Source: an uncultured Kangiella sp.
GTDB lineage: Bacteria > Pseudomonadota > Gammaproteobacteria > Enterobacterales > Kangiellaceae
Direction of reading: 5' to 3'
Length of the DNA: 64,000 nucleotides
NCBI GenBank assembly: GCA_947503435.1
Contig: CANNDL010000003.1
Location: forward strand, 248,001 to 312,000
Shown here: piece by piece, positions 53,495 through 58,037 of the stretch
Position numbering within the stretch: position 1 is the stretch's first letter
Layout: every line of letters starts with the position of its first letter
Notes under the pieces: generated by a model
Databases searched by the model: none
Told to the model about the DNA's origin: nothing
Seen by the model: only the letters and a program-made list of their open reading frames with translations
Program-made: the position numbers and the translations under genes

Positions 53495-55234
53495 TTATGA
53501 CTGACTCGCCATTTGTAACACACGGTTTTTACCGGAGTCTTTGGCTTGATACATAACTTTATCAGCGTCACCGATTAAATCCTGCAATTCATAACCAGAA
53601 ATCTTTGAGGTAGTCACACCGAAGCTAGCAGAAATATCGAATTTATTGCCATGCTTAGATTTTGAAGTATCTACTGATTCAATGGCTTGGCGACACTTTT
53701 CCGCAATTTCCATTGCTTTAGTTAAATCACAAGTTGGTAGCATCAAAGCAAATTCTTCGCCACCTAAACGACCTGCAATATCATTCTGACGCCAATGCGG
53801 ACGAGCAGCAGCTATCGCAGTTTCTAAAACCCAATCTCCAACTAAATGTCCATAATCGTCATTAACCGACTTAAAACGGTCCATGTCAAACATAATAAAG
53901 CTAACATCTTTATCAGTGTTTTTTGCATATTCCAAAGTCTTATTACACATCATATAGAAATGATGTCGCGAACATACTCCTGTTAGTACATCGATTTCTG
54001 ACTGTCTTTTTAACCTTACCTGATAGCGTTTTACTCGATATGCCCAATAAGCTAATGACAATAATATCGATAATAGCAAGAGAATTAATAGCTTATTGTT
54101 TTCAGACTCTTCTTTTACAAGTTTCTGCTCTAAGCCCAAGAGTTGATTCTTACTTTCCAGAGCTTCAATTTGCCTTTCTTTTTCTATAGTGTTTTGTTTG
54201 GCTAATTGAAAAGCTAAAAGCTTGTTATATTCATCATCTAAATATTCGTAACGTTTATTCTCGAATAAGCTTAAATATTTATGGGCATTTTTATAATCTT
54301 TTAATTCTTTATAGGAATCCGCGAGAACACGATAAGAGTTCAAAATCCAGCGTTGAGCTCCTATAAGTGATTCTTTTGCAATGGCATCTTTGGCAAATAG
54401 CACGGCTTCGTTATATTTTTTATCAGATAAGGCTAGTTCTGAGTCAATATAGTTAAACGCTGAATTTAACTTATTAGACTGCCTTACAAACTCTTTATCT
54501 AAATTGTTTCTAGTAAAGCTCTTTAAGTTGAGCAAATCATTATTTCTTAATAAGTATTCGCTAAACACAAAATTAATAACATTAGCAGTGTCTAACTCTC
54601 CTGACTTTCTACAATCGTTAATTGTTAAGTCAAAAAAGTCTTTATTATAAGTATTTAAATTTAAATCAGACTCAAGCATTAATCCTCGAACCAAACATTT
54701 TTGCCTATTATTCAAGTCTTCCTTTAAAAGAGTTTTAGCTAAAGTACTAGTTAGCTCGAACTTATGAAGATTATTATAAATAACTAATGATGTAATTCTT
54801 ATAAGTTTTTCTAGCTCAAAGCTGGGATTATTTTTGATAACATCTTCAGCATCCGATAAATACTCTAAAGATTTATTATAATCTCTTAAATTATTATGCA
54901 GGTTCGCGAGTATTACTAACGACTTTACTTTTAATTCAATAGAGTCTGTTTGAGCTAATACTGCTTCGAATCCTTTAATTCCCCTTTGATAATCAAACTG
55001 ATTATTAATAGCATCATAGCTTTTTAGATAATCAAGCCGTAGCTTTTGCTCTTGATTTAAACTATGAGCGCTTTCTTCTAGTTGCTTCAATAACCTTGAA
55101 AACTCTTTTTTGTCTCCTGTTCTTAATGACTCAGCCTGATTTATAAGCAATGTAAGGCTGTGGTCGTCTTCAGCAACAACCACAGTAGAAAAGCAGAACC
55201 CAATAAAAAGAAATAAAAAATAGTTACGAAGCAT
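53495..55234 (-). CDS. TPR-containing diguanylate cyclase, periplasmic sensor type
   Basis: The 579-residue protein has a signal peptide (YFLFLFIGFCFSTVVVA), TPR-like helical repeats over about residues 30-340, a coiled coil, one membrane helix (about 385-405; LLILLLLSILLSLAYWAYRV) and a GGDEF domain. The active site is GGEEF (491-495) and the I-site RQND (482-485) is intact, so it should make c-di-GMP. The segment DVLTGVCSRHHFYMMCN opens the domain. Its start overlaps the end of the short acidic peptide gene by 11 bp, so it is translationally coupled to that gene. By eye its coding sequence is more AT-rich than its neighbours. Confidence 0.9.
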   Translation of the reverse strand: MLRNYFLFLFIGFCFSTVVVAEDDHSLTLLINQAESLRTGDKKEFSRLLKQLEESAHSLNQEQKLRLDYLKSYDAINNQFDYQRGIKGFEAVLAQTDSIELKVKSLVILANLHNNLRDYNKSLEYLSDAEDVIKNNPSFELEKLIRITSLVIYNNLHKFELTSTLAKTLLKEDLNNRQKCLVRGLMLESDLNLNTYNKDFFDLTINDCRKSGELDTANVINFVFSEYLLRNNDLLNLKSFTRNNLDKEFVRQSNKLNSAFNYIDSELALSDKKYNEAVLFAKDAIAKESLIGAQRWILNSYRVLADSYKELKDYKNAHKYLSLFENKRYEYLDDEYNKLLAFQLAKQNTIEKERQIEALESKNQLLGLEQKLVKEESENNKLLILLLLSILLSLAYWAYRVKRYQVRLKRQSEIDVLTGVCSRHHFYMMCNKTLEYAKNTDKDVSFIMFDMDRFKSVNDDYGHLVGDWVLETAIAAARPHWRQNDIAGRLGGEEFALMLPTCDLTKAMEIAEKCRQAIESVDTSKSKHGNKFDISASFGVTTSKISGYELQDLIGDADKVMYQAKDSGKNRVLQMASQS

Positions 55235-55475
55235 TTACTAGTAGCTTATTTTCTTCATTCGAATCGTCATCATGATCTTCATTAGAATCATCATCTTCAT
55301 CGTCATCTTCTGCTGGAACAATAAAGCTGCATATATTCGATTCTAAACCCAATTCTTTTTCTAAAAATTCGATGTCGTTGTTTTGAATAGCTAATTGCAA
55401 CTCTTCACTAATTTCCATATTTTCAGAATTAGTATCAGTAGCTAAATTAGTTAAGTAATGGATTATTTCGCTCAT
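55224..55475 (-). CDS. Putative split-borosin precursor peptide
   Basis: An 83-residue acidic protein starting MSEIIHYLTNLATDTNSENM at the ATG 55473-55475, which has a strong GGAGGAG ribosome binding site. Residues about 21-45 are a predicted helical segment (ISEELQLAIQNNDIEFLEKE), followed by a short hydrophobic stretch NICSFIVPA (47-55). A long acidic tail rich in Asp, Asn and Glu completes it (56-83). This layout (helical recognition domain, short apolar core, tail) matches split borosin precursors such as Shewanella SonA as I recall it, with similar spacing of Leu and Asp in the helix. It lies 63 bp after the methyltransferase and overlaps the diguanylate cyclase gene. Expected modification: backbone N-methylation within residues 48-53. 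This is inferred. Confidence 0.75.
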   Translation of the reverse strand: MSEIIHYLTNLATDTNSENMEISEELQLAIQNNDIEFLEKELGLESNICSFIVPAEDDDEDDDSNEDHDDDSNEENKLLVNAS

Positions 55476-55538: not shown

Positions 55539-56276
55539 TTATGCCGGAGGAATCGCTAGAGTAGTATGCATATTCAACTTTGAATTGGCAAGCTCTGACA
55601 ATGCAATTGTCTCAATGCGTGGTTTTGCCGAGGGTAAGGTCGCAGCCTCATAAATAGTGATTTGATGATTTTTAGGGTATTTTTGCAATAATCTATCCAT
55701 AAGTAGCGTTTTTTCTTCTTTATCAGTGCTGAATTTCTTTAAAGATCTATCGCCAACAACCCCAACTTGCCAAAGAATTAGATAGGATGATGGATCGAAT
55801 AGTCTGTTGTGCATTAAAAACTGAGTTGCTTCGTGCTGTTGGCAGCCAAATTTACCTGGATCGATGCCTAAATCTGCAAATAAGCAAGCATCAGCAGATA
55901 CTGCAGGCTCCATATGCGCAGGCAAGCCTAAAGCTTTAACTTTTTTAATTGCATCGTGCGGGACTTTAGCGAAAATCCCTGGATGACCATAAAAAACACC
56001 GCAAACCTTATTTCCATCCCTAACTTTAGAAGAAATTTCAGCGACCATTTCTTTATAGGTCTCTAAGCGAGATTTCCCTTCTTGGTAATACTGCTGCAAA
56101 CTAATAACGTTAGGGTGCATTTCTTTGATCCAAAGCTCAGAAATAGAGTCGGCCATTAAGCAAAACACCAAGTCGGCAGATTTAATAAGATTTTCAGTTC
56201 TAGTGCTAATATGGGCACCAAGAGTGATCCCTGTACCCACACAAACTAAAGAGCCTTGTTTGTCATTACTGCTCAT
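55539..56276 (-). CDS. Borosin-type peptide backbone alpha-N-methyltransferase (tetrapyrrole methylase fold)
   Basis: The 245-residue protein has the TP-methylase fold: GSLVCVGTGITLG (8-20) for SAM binding, FYGHPGIF (95-102), MEPAVSADACLFADLGIDPG (122-141), the segment EATQFL and LILWQ. These are features of the borosin family (SonM, OphMA), not of cobalamin or siroheme enzymes. The catalytic trio is visible as Tyr64, Arg70 and Tyr74 in QQYYQEGKSRLETYKEM; the spacing Tyr-x5-Arg-x3-Tyr equals that recalled for OphMA (Tyr66, Arg72, Tyr76). It lacks the fused core peptide of fungal enzymes, so the substrate is separate, probably the next gene's product. It overlaps the GNAT gene by 11 bp. Confidence 0.85.
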   Translation of the reverse strand: MSSNDKQGSLVCVGTGITLGAHISTRTENLIKSADLVFCLMADSISELWIKEMHPNVISLQQYYQEGKSRLETYKEMVAEISSKVRDGNKVCGVFYGHPGIFAKVPHDAIKKVKALGLPAHMEPAVSADACLFADLGIDPGKFGCQQHEATQFLMHNRLFDPSSYLILWQVGVVGDRSLKKFSTDKEEKTLLMDRLLQKYPKNHQITIYEAATLPSAKPRIETIALSELANSKLNMHTTLAIPPA

Positions 56277-56769
56277 TATTAATATACCAACTGATAGTAT
56301 CGTTATTTTCTGTGCCAGACTCAGGACTGAAACCCTGTCTTTTCAGTGATTCGATGGCTTTAACATTATGTTTAGAAGACTTGGCCAACACTTTAGTAGC
56401 TAATTTATTTTCAAACAGGTAATCAATAATGGCGACACAACTTTCTAATGAGTAACCGCCACTATGTGCTTCTTTCTTTAGGATAATCCCTAACTCATAG
56501 CCTTTTCTTTGTTTATCCCATTGCAGCCCTAAAAGTCCAAACGCTTTATTAGAGTCCGTCTCATTTATAATTAAAAAACGGTTATGTAGTTTTTCAGTGA
56601 AAGCGTTTTTTAATGCAACATTAAAGCTCTTTTCTAATTGTGCTTTTTCTAAAGGCTTCGCAATATGCTTCATTAAATCTGGATCAGAGTAGAGATCAAC
56701 ATATAAATTTCGATCTGCACTTTTAACTTCGCGCATAGTTAGGCGCTCAGAAGAAAATAAAATTTTCAT
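56266..56769 (-). CDS. GNAT family N-acetyltransferase (RimJ/RimL-like)
   Basis: The 167-residue protein has a RimJ/L-type start (SSERLTMREVKSADRNLYVD) and the acetyl-CoA segment YELGIILKKEAHSGGYSLES, followed by ATKVLAKSSKHNVKAIESLK and RQGFSPES. The Gly-rich pyrophosphate loop is imperfect. It probably acetylates an amino group of a protein or small molecule. It overlaps the pepB stop by one base (TAATG) and the methyltransferase start by 11 bp, so it may act on the same peptide, but a housekeeping role is equally possible. Confidence 0.85.
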   Translation of the reverse strand: MKILFSSERLTMREVKSADRNLYVDLYSDPDLMKHIAKPLEKAQLEKSFNVALKNAFTEKLHNRFLIINETDSNKAFGLLGLQWDKQRKGYELGIILKKEAHSGGYSLESCVAIIDYLFENKLATKVLAKSSKHNVKAIESLKRQGFSPESGTENNDTISWYINNEQ

Positions 56770-58037
56770 TATTTGCTTATAACGTTGGCTATTGCTCTAA
56801 AGCCTACGCCAGTGCCACCTGCTGACCATTTACCTGTAGCGTTATCTCGGTAAGCTGCGGCTAAATCCACATGCACCCAGCCTTTGCCTTCATCGCGGAC
56901 AAAACGCGATAAGAAACCTGCGGCATTGGAAGCTCCGCCTGGACCGCCGCCTTTTACCGCACGACTGTTAGCGGTAATAGCAAAGTTCGAGGGGCATTTA
57001 TTGGCATGGAATGATTCTAAAGGTAATGGCCAATGACGTTCGTTTTCAGATTGAGCTGCATTTAAGAAGTCATTACGCGCATCATCATCTAAGGCAAATA
57101 CTGCATTATAGTCTTCACCTAATGCGGTAACCGCTGCACCCGTTAAAGTCGCAGCGTCGATGATAGTTGGTGCACCGGATTCAGATGCAAGCAATAAGCC
57201 ATCAGCTAATACAATACGTCCTTCGGCATCGGTATTTTGTATCTCAACAGTCACACCATTCGGATAAGTTAAGATATCGCCTAGCTTATACGCATGACCA
57301 CTGATTAGATTTTCCGCGCAGCACAAATACAAGTGCACAGGTTTATCTAATCCACGCAATATTGCCAAGCCCAAAGCACCCGTTACTGTAGCCGCACCAC
57401 CCATGTCAGCTTTCATGTGCAGCATGCCTGCGCTTGGCTTAATGCTATAACCACCGCTATCAAAAGTAATGCCTTTGCCCACTAGAGCTGCTATTGGTGT
57501 CGGACTTTCTTGATCGGTTGGATTGAATACTAATTTTAAAAGTGCCGGCGGACGAGTAGAGCCACGTCCTACTTCCCAAGTGCCAATATGACCTGCTTTT
57601 TCTAAATCTTCGCCAGAAACTATTTCATAGCTGACATTCTCTGGCGATAAACTTTGAATAAAATCTGCTGCTTCTTGTGCTAAAACCTCTGGCGCTTGTA
57701 CCTCTGGTGTTTCGTTTACCATTGAGCGCATCCAGCGGCTAACTTGCACTCGAGCATCTAATTCTCTAGCCTCACTTTCCGACAATTCCGCATATTCGAT
57801 TTGCACGTCGATTTTTGGATCGTATGAACCTTGAAAGAAACTCCATTGCGCGTCTAGCGGCCAATTACCTGTTAGTTCAAAGTCAGAAACGCCATTATTT
57901 ACTAGTTTACGCGCCGCCATTTGCACTGCTTCAGCGTCGGCACTATGAACGGTGGCACTATTGTCACCGAAACTAATTAAGCTGCCTTGCCATGCGTTTG
58001 TGGCTTCTTGTTCGGAAAGAAATATTTGTAAACTCAT
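56769..58037 (-). CDS. pepB: Aminopeptidase B (M17 leucyl aminopeptidase family)
   Basis: The 422-residue enzyme has the dizinc M17 motifs: LVGKGITFDSGGYSIKPS (Lys and Asp ligands), HMKADMGGAATVTGAL, the signature NTDAEGRIVLADGL and TLTGAAVTALG. Length and motif spacing match E. coli PepB rather than PepA (which has a longer N-terminal domain). It removes N-terminal residues from peptides in the cytosol. It is followed with TAATG overlap by the GNAT gene and preceded by ribA across 30 bp. Its place in the operon makes it a candidate for trimming the modified peptide; it is also a normal housekeeping enzyme. Confidence 0.95.
   Translation of the reverse strand: MSLQIFLSEQEATNAWQGSLISFGDNSATVHSADAEAVQMAARKLVNNGVSDFELTGNWPLDAQWSFFQGSYDPKIDVQIEYAELSESEARELDARVQVSRWMRSMVNETPEVQAPEVLAQEAADFIQSLSPENVSYEIVSGEDLEKAGHIGTWEVGRGSTRPPALLKLVFNPTDQESPTPIAALVGKGITFDSGGYSIKPSAGMLHMKADMGGAATVTGALGLAILRGLDKPVHLYLCCAENLISGHAYKLGDILTYPNGVTVEIQNTDAEGRIVLADGLLLASESGAPTIIDAATLTGAAVTALGEDYNAVFALDDDARNDFLNAAQSENERHWPLPLESFHANKCPSNFAITANSRAVKGGGPGGASNAAGFLSRFVRDEGKGWVHVDLAAAYRDNATGKWSAGGTGVGFRAIANVISK

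Follow-up and report, generated by a model that had tools for sequence, protein, structure and literature searches.

An acid-tailed split-borosin precursor beside a TPR-GGDEF sensor gene in Kangiella, with a pepsin homologue as a possible partner in some lineages

What is the small acidic protein encoded between a methyltransferase gene and a GGDEF gene in an uncultured Kangiella sp., and what might it do? The DNA examined here, hereafter the window, is a stretch of 64,000 nt from assembly GCA_947503435.1 (contig CANNDL010000003.1, positions 248,001-312,000, forward strand). Five genes form a row in it, all on the minus strand and in the order PepB, GNAT, methyltransferase, precursor, TPR-GGDEF. 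Neighbors in the row overlap by 1 or 11 nt, with the exception of a 63-nt gap ahead of the precursor. The features are as follows:

56769..58037, minus strand: PepB aminopeptidase, at the head of the row as drawn
56266..56769, minus strand: GNAT acetyltransferase, overlapping the methyltransferase start by 11 nt
55539..56276, minus strand: SonM-type peptide backbone N-methyltransferase (TP_methylase), 245 aa, assigned by its match to SonM in the PDB (E 3.9e-70), PF00590, and catalytic residues
55224..55475, minus strand: split-borosin precursor, 83 aa, assigned from the ORF, homologue profiles, alignment, and hydropathy
53495..55234, minus strand: signal peptide-TPR-membrane helix-GGDEF protein, 579 aa, its start overlapping the precursor stop by 11 nt

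A sequence-only reading had proposed a RiPP precursor at 55224-55475, consisting of a helical recognition segment, an apolar core, and a long acidic tail. The coordinates were right and the gene lies on the minus strand, with an ATG at 55475 and a stop codon at 55224-55226; the plus strand is riddled with stops over the same span. The start follows a strong ribosome-binding sequence (GGAGGAG-ACT-ATG). A TTG start giving a 94-aa precursor is also possible, but the homologue alignment begins at the ATG. Translation confirmed the 83 residues, a single Cys (49) and a single Pro (54) in the whole protein, and a 28-residue acidic tail (56-83) with 15 D/E. We divide the precursor into a helical leader (about 1-45), a core (about 46-55, ICSFIVPA), an acidic follower (56-76), and an apolar end (77-83). 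The claim that there is only one hydrophobic stretch held for the main peak at 46-55, as the top five hydrophobic 7-residue windows start at 46-50, but a weaker apolar patch, KLLVNAS, occupies residues 77-83 at the C-terminus. By eye, no signal peptide is apparent on the precursor.

The neighboring enzyme supports the assignment to the RiPPs. Besides SonM, it matches the OphMA-type fungal borosin enzymes (E about 1e-45). Its Y64, R70, Y74, and Y96 are kept by all 14 methyltransferase relatives that we chose, and align with SonM Y58, R67, Y71, and Y93; the SonM substitutions Y58F, R67K, Y71F, and Y93F are reported to lower catalytic efficiency by 1.6- to 98-fold (PMC8429565). A contig search with the single methyltransferase gave no match, and the same search succeeded with alignment A1 as the query. 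The methyltransferase was found in 41 of 61 whole genomes (the window's own and 60 relatives). In named genomes, at least 571 of 596 pattern matches were confirmed as methyltransferase relatives, and 80 loci were kept among the matches listed, from Lysobacter, Dyella, Rhodanobacter, Luteimonas, Rheinheimera, Shewanella, Marinicella, and other genera.

The precursor was also searched for on its own, and 18 of the 61 genomes matched at E up to 0.01, own genome included. Judged by coordinates, a methyltransferase match is found no more than about 500 nt from each of the 17 matches outside the own genome. An unrelated small acidic protein that sits beside the methyltransferase by chance, and is no RiPP precursor, would account for the finding that the precursor has no Pfam match at the family cutoff and no NCBIfam match. 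This explanation is refuted by the conservation of those 17 neighbors, and we consider it extremely improbable. When homologous small ORFs beside related methyltransferases were aligned, the P-A junction, the distance between core and helix, and the acidic tail were all kept. The layout is thus more than chance, since it recurs beside methyltransferases with core, spacing, and tail together.

A helical borosin-binding domain is suggested by a profile of acid-tail rows only (A2), which matches SonA residues 1-53 (E 0.0022). A second profile (A4) matches SonA at 2e-13, a value that is partly circular because A4 includes SonA-like rows. The predicted structure of the precursor has helices at 3-13, 24-31, and 35-42 with the rest uncertain (pLDDT 74.9, pTM 0.44), and a Foldseek search with this low-confidence model gave no fold match, SonA-like fold included. 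Type IV split borosins are already established, and, judged from sequence and neighbors, the 83-aa gene encodes the precursor for one. Compared to its closest homologues in A2, this precursor lacks about 12 residues in the helical part.

Where would the methyl groups go? SonM is reported to methylate SonA at L63 and then at I65 (PMC8429565). In an ungapped projection that sets G43 equal to SonA G55, these two sites correspond to F51 and V53, both within the 50-53 range in which methylation had been expected from the sequence. Backbone methylation of the core is, in our judgment, very likely. Conservation of P54 and A55 reaches at least 90% in 27 acid-tail rows, which were our own choice and contain one sequence twice, and few gaps separate the last helix from the core in these rows. 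A P-[AGE]-[EDKN] junction is present in 90 of 115 acid-type precursors, and Cys is the commonest residue four positions before its Pro (49/90); the Kangiella precursor has Ser50 there and its Cys one residue earlier. Inspection by eye shows tails of fewer than ten residues in L192 and L201 and of more than fifty in L064. Since both tail length and tail sequence vary, charge rather than sequence seems to be what is retained.

These counts depend on thresholds. Precursors were counted at E below 1e-3 for pepsin co-occurrence and at E below 1e-6 for GGDEF adjacency and covariation. At E 0.05, the precursor profile found none in 14 loci (L061, L111, L113, L115-L117, L122, L127, L130, L151, L173, L184, L196, L227), some of which hold visibly related ORFs. 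Several variants were seen in passing. The borosin methyltransferases of L111, L113, L115, and L117 are accompanied by a different precursor type, whose ends are rich in Asn (TDNNVS-like); the motif is present twice in L117, and L111, L113, and L115 also carry members of the TPR cluster described below with kinase-like ends. One homologue (L172:6473-6901) has a short acidic part and then a lysine-rich tail with repeated KKKGG, and in another (L064:4885-5262) the acid tail is expanded through Asp-Asn repeats. The last five residues of the acid tails are 41% hydrophobic, compared to 15% in residues -25 to -8, and 11 of 115 tails end in AA; these apolar ends (in the window, 55227-55247) somewhat resemble a degradation tag.

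The gene behind the precursor was examined across all methyltransferase loci. GGDEF genes occur in the surrounding sequence of 116 of 156 methyltransferase matches. Gene calling lost 26 of the 156 (overlapping ORFs, GC-rich DNA), leaving 130 scorable loci, and in 126 of these a protein from one TPR cluster is encoded no more than three genes away. On the same strand, members occupy slots +1 (79), +2 (48), -1 (15), +3 (13), -2 (1), and -3 (1), the last two being 1/113 and 1/97; one further member is on the opposite strand. A same-strand member is found at -1, +1, or +2 in 121 loci and directly adjacent in 90, and GGDEF-bearing members are present in 90 loci. The cluster was built by single linkage and pulled in at least one plain response regulator by eye (L109, 266 aa), in a locus that also has a TPR kinase.

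The output domain of these proteins varies between GGDEF, histidine kinase, and none. GGDEF is present in 100 of 154 cluster members; of the other 54, 50 match TPR_12 and 16 match the histidine-kinase ATPase domain. In L057, for example, an acid-tail precursor is accompanied by a kinase-type sensor in place of the GGDEF protein, with a TPR match below the Pfam cutoff. A GGDEF gene lies behind 91 of 115 acid-type precursors on the same strand, at a median gap of 13 nt. It also lies next to 16 of 43 non-acid precursors and, therefore, is not peculiar to acid tails. Five loci carry two acid-type precursor-GGDEF pairs. Some methyltransferases had been taken as orphans; this was wrong in eleven loci, where the precursor is upstream of the GGDEF gene (L050, L076, L082, L083, L087, L091, L092, L095, L097, L098, L099). 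GGDEF matches number 19 in the own genome, and each of its two borosin sets includes one.

The model of the window's sensor (pLDDT 91.9) begins with a helix at the N-terminus; helical repeats span residues 42-310, and a long helix (314-413) precedes the GGDEF domain. The best 50 Foldseek matches were all GGDEF-type entries, so the TPR assignment rests on Pfam (TPR_12 in 26 of 42 sensors) and the helix pattern. The GG[DE]EF motif is intact in 42/42 sensors and the RxxD I-site in 35/42. By hydropathy prediction, all 42 have a membrane helix, followed in each by positive residues, and 38 have an N-terminal hydrophobic stretch, which suggests that the TPR part lies outside the inner membrane, in the periplasm. 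All 91 sensor TPR parts compared keep Cys180 and Cys208, as a disulphide would require. Elsewhere in the genus (L079:4845-8366 and others), two or three tandem TPR-only proteins with signal-peptide-like starts lie behind SonA-like methyltransferase sets.

If the mature peptide were the ligand of the TPR part, the two might be expected to covary. With GGDEF and methyltransferase distances held fixed, core distances did not follow TPR distances (partial Mantel r -0.04, p 0.74), and leader distances did (partial r 0.55, p 0.001). Core distances also follow those of the GGDEF part (r 0.44, p 0.001). Covariation values of this sort are therefore probably due to kinship. The result is against a simple core-receptor pair and points to the leader instead. 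One possible explanation is that the whole methylated precursor is a regulatory protein that binds the sensor through its helical domain, with the acidic tail as an integral part. The leader result fits this, as do the many acid-tail genomes that have no pepsin homologue (see below). Nevertheless, no signal peptide can be made out on the precursor although the TPR part is predicted to be periplasmic, and among the relatives a pepsin homologue tracks the acid-tail type. We regard a regulatory role of the intact precursor as quite unlikely.

Another possible explanation is that the split borosin is an ordinary secreted metabolite, such as a microbial inhibitor, and that the TPR-GGDEF protein controls its production or reads the envelope with no sensing of the peptide. 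Mature borosins such as the omphalotins are described as bioactive metabolites (PMC8429565), and the core that does not covary with the TPR part would be in line with such a product. Against this, the TPR parts persist as the output domains change, two precursor-GGDEF pairs stand together in the five loci mentioned above, and no exporter, transporter, or immunity gene was seen in the row by eye or when five of its proteins were scanned with Pfam. A secreted metabolite of this kind is, in our view, unlikely. As to the other row members, members of the GNAT protein's cluster are found no more than three genes away from the methyltransferase in 57 of the 130 scorable loci, and members of the PepB cluster near it in 12 of the 130. 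PepB is so rarely found there that its place in the row is probably synteny rather than pathway.

Clustering also placed a homologue of pepsin, of a kind rare in bacteria, upstream of the methyltransferase in 13 loci, with both genes on the same strand. In 11 of these loci it is the second gene upstream, and in 11 of the 13 a GNAT gene lies between the two. A motif search added L130 and L163, giving 15 loci with a pepsin homologue in the gene row. PF00026 matches 15 of 15 pepsin homologues, and D38 and D284 are invariant. The own genome encodes its pepsin homologue about 193 kb beyond the window (L218:2815-4074). This is a bilobed A1 aspartic protease that shows no signal peptide at its start by eye and is predicted to be cytoplasmic; its second active-site motif reads D-C-G, shared in alignment A3 only with L069.

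In whole genomes, PF00026 matches were found in 24 of the 61 own and related genomes and in none of 14 control genomes, and profile A3 picked out the same 24. In the 39 of 61 genomes where a precursor was found, a pepsin homologue occurs in 23 of 24 with an acid tail and in none of 15 with other precursors only (Fisher 6e-10, with kinship ignored). On a GcvP tree, which covers 16 of 20 members of the window's genus and excludes the own genome, the acid-tail split, and the pepsin with it, amounts to one change. There are two exceptions: G048 has an acid tail and no pepsin homologue (genome 85% complete), and G020 has a pepsin homologue and a methyltransferase with no precursor found (73% complete).

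Wider samples give a more mixed picture. Among 369 genomes sampled across the class, PF00026 matches five and the methyltransferase ten. Two of the five proteins, from the own genome and G425, are shewasin-kind pepsins, and the acid-tail set is present in both of these genomes. Those from G063, G123, and G394 begin with an apparent signal peptide, and their genomes give no methyltransferase match. The eight other methyltransferase genomes of the sample have no PF00026 match; in three of their loci that we inspected, two precursors are SonA-like and the third locus yielded none. L222-L224 hold three pepsin-like proteins that start with an apparent signal peptide, in gammaproteobacteria with no borosin methyltransferase match. 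In the named set, PF00026 matches occur in 16 of the 78 distinct genomes, which make up 79 rows because G433 is listed twice. A3 gives 18 of 78, adding G435 and a broken copy in G452, the genome of L147, where the gene on contig C10 carries a stop and is fragmented. Counting the named set and G425 together, a pepsin homologue is missing from 52 of 66 acid-type genomes and, thus, can be a partner in some lineages at most. In the same genomes a pepsin homologue accompanies 11 of 25 with a P-A-acidic junction and 3 of 41 with none, a moderate association (Fisher p 0.001). In the full table, 15 genomes have the motif only and 4 have pepsin without the motif. This comparison was a post hoc idea with a loose pattern; it took in all acid-type precursors per genome and counted the broken G452 copy as pepsin-positive.

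Could such an enzyme cut this precursor? Shewasins are reported to prefer Phe, Leu, or Tyr, and also Asp, at P1, a hydrophobic residue at P1', and Ala or Val at P2' (PMC4814920). These preferences match CSF-IVPA, which makes F51-I52 a plausible cut if it is unmethylated. Shewasins are described as having an optimum near pH 4, and shewasin A as having no activity at pH 6 (PMC4814920), which would be awkward for a cut in the cytoplasm. We put cleavage by the pepsin homologue at about an even chance.

From the observed gene order, homology, conservation, and co-occurrence, we propose the following working. The helical leader would dock on the adjacent SonM-type methyltransferase, which would methylate backbone amides of the apolar core, most likely at F51 and V53. 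The acidic tail may act as a cytoplasmic follower that keeps the apolar stretch in solution and is then removed, in the own genome probably by the shewasin-kind pepsin homologue encoded elsewhere; the roles of the tail and of GNAT are the weak points of the proposal. Being methylated and more permeable, the mature peptide could reach the periplasmic TPR part with no exporter. There the mature peptide, or the precursor itself, would work with the TPR domain of the adjacent sensor and tune the diguanylate cyclase and thereby c-di-GMP. We give this account, a methylated peptide that works with a TPR sensor in c-di-GMP signaling, a probability of about 0.55, and function through the TPR sensor seems to us slightly better than an even bet. 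A broader version is more tentative and somewhat doubtful: the split borosins of Gammaproteobacteria might be membrane-crossing, backbone-N-methylated peptide signals read by a periplasmic TPR receptor from the adjacent gene, which has swappable outputs (diguanylate cyclase, histidine kinase), with the cytoplasmic pepsin as maturation protease in part of the acid-tail branch.

What the locus adds is the gene order and co-occurrence that tie split borosins to a variable-output TPR sensor and, in some lineages, to bacterial pepsins. As of 2021, split borosin pathways are described as not yet linked to a final product (PMC8429565), and a 2016 study left the in vivo role of bacterial pepsins open (PMC4814920). 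The product of the former and the function of the latter both become testable by gene deletion, and the broader signaling reading, if true, would give a first function to both. Our literature search found no paper joining borosins with pepsin or with a diguanylate cyclase. The main text of PMC8429565 contains none of TPR, tetratricopeptide, or c-di-GMP, and its mentions of protease are reagents; TPR and pepsin are absent from the text of PMC11395268, and TPR, pepsin, and GGDEF from PMC11285071. A link between borosins and GGDEF is already in print in some form, since the Figure 1 legend of PMC11395268 lists a GGDEF domain in its borosin type scheme. That scheme draws on Imani 2022 and Cho 2022, and it is possible that these original mining surveys mention a TPR sensor or pepsin. 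The GGDEF-bearing type could be the same gene set as ours; the legend names neither the type nor TPR.

Among known systems, SonM/SonA of Shewanella oneidensis (PMC8429565, PDB 7LTC) is a close likeness. It is described as a separate methyltransferase and a short precursor with a helical leader and then an apolar core, and SonM shares its catalytic residues with the Kangiella methyltransferase. In contrast to the Kangiella precursor, SonA is 71 aa long, has a longer leader, and ends with its core (62-71), so that it has no acidic tail. The pepsin homologue that accompanies the acid-tail type in the relatives of Kangiella is also reported as not detected in S. oneidensis (PMC2761423). Two of our aligned pepsin-homologue rows come from Shewanella species (L171, L187). 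Shewasins A and D resemble these homologues by description, being bilobed, of the A1 type, and with no apparent signal peptide (PMC4814920, PMC2761423), and the best PDB matches of our homologues are beta-secretases, as published for the shewasins. Those two papers give no in vivo function for the shewasins, whereas the homologues here accompany acid-tail borosin genes.

A second set in the own genome, outside the window (L050:3009-5801), likewise combines a SonM-type methyltransferase (48% identical), a precursor, and a TPR-GGDEF protein. It differs in its order (precursor, TPR-GGDEF, methyltransferase) and in its SonA-like precursor with no acidic tail. The RRNPP receptors of Bacillota are cytoplasmic TPR proteins that bind unmethylated peptides. 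They share with our locus the pairing of a TPR domain with a neighboring small peptide gene, and we claim no homology; the Kangiella TPR part differs in being predicted periplasmic and in belonging to a cluster with GGDEF or kinase outputs. Finally, RcbA/RcbB of Vibrio vulnificus (PMC12282931), likened here by description, has another TPR protein as the partner and no RiPP precursor, but it too is reported as a TPR-GGDEF protein controlled via its TPR part by the product of an adjacent gene.
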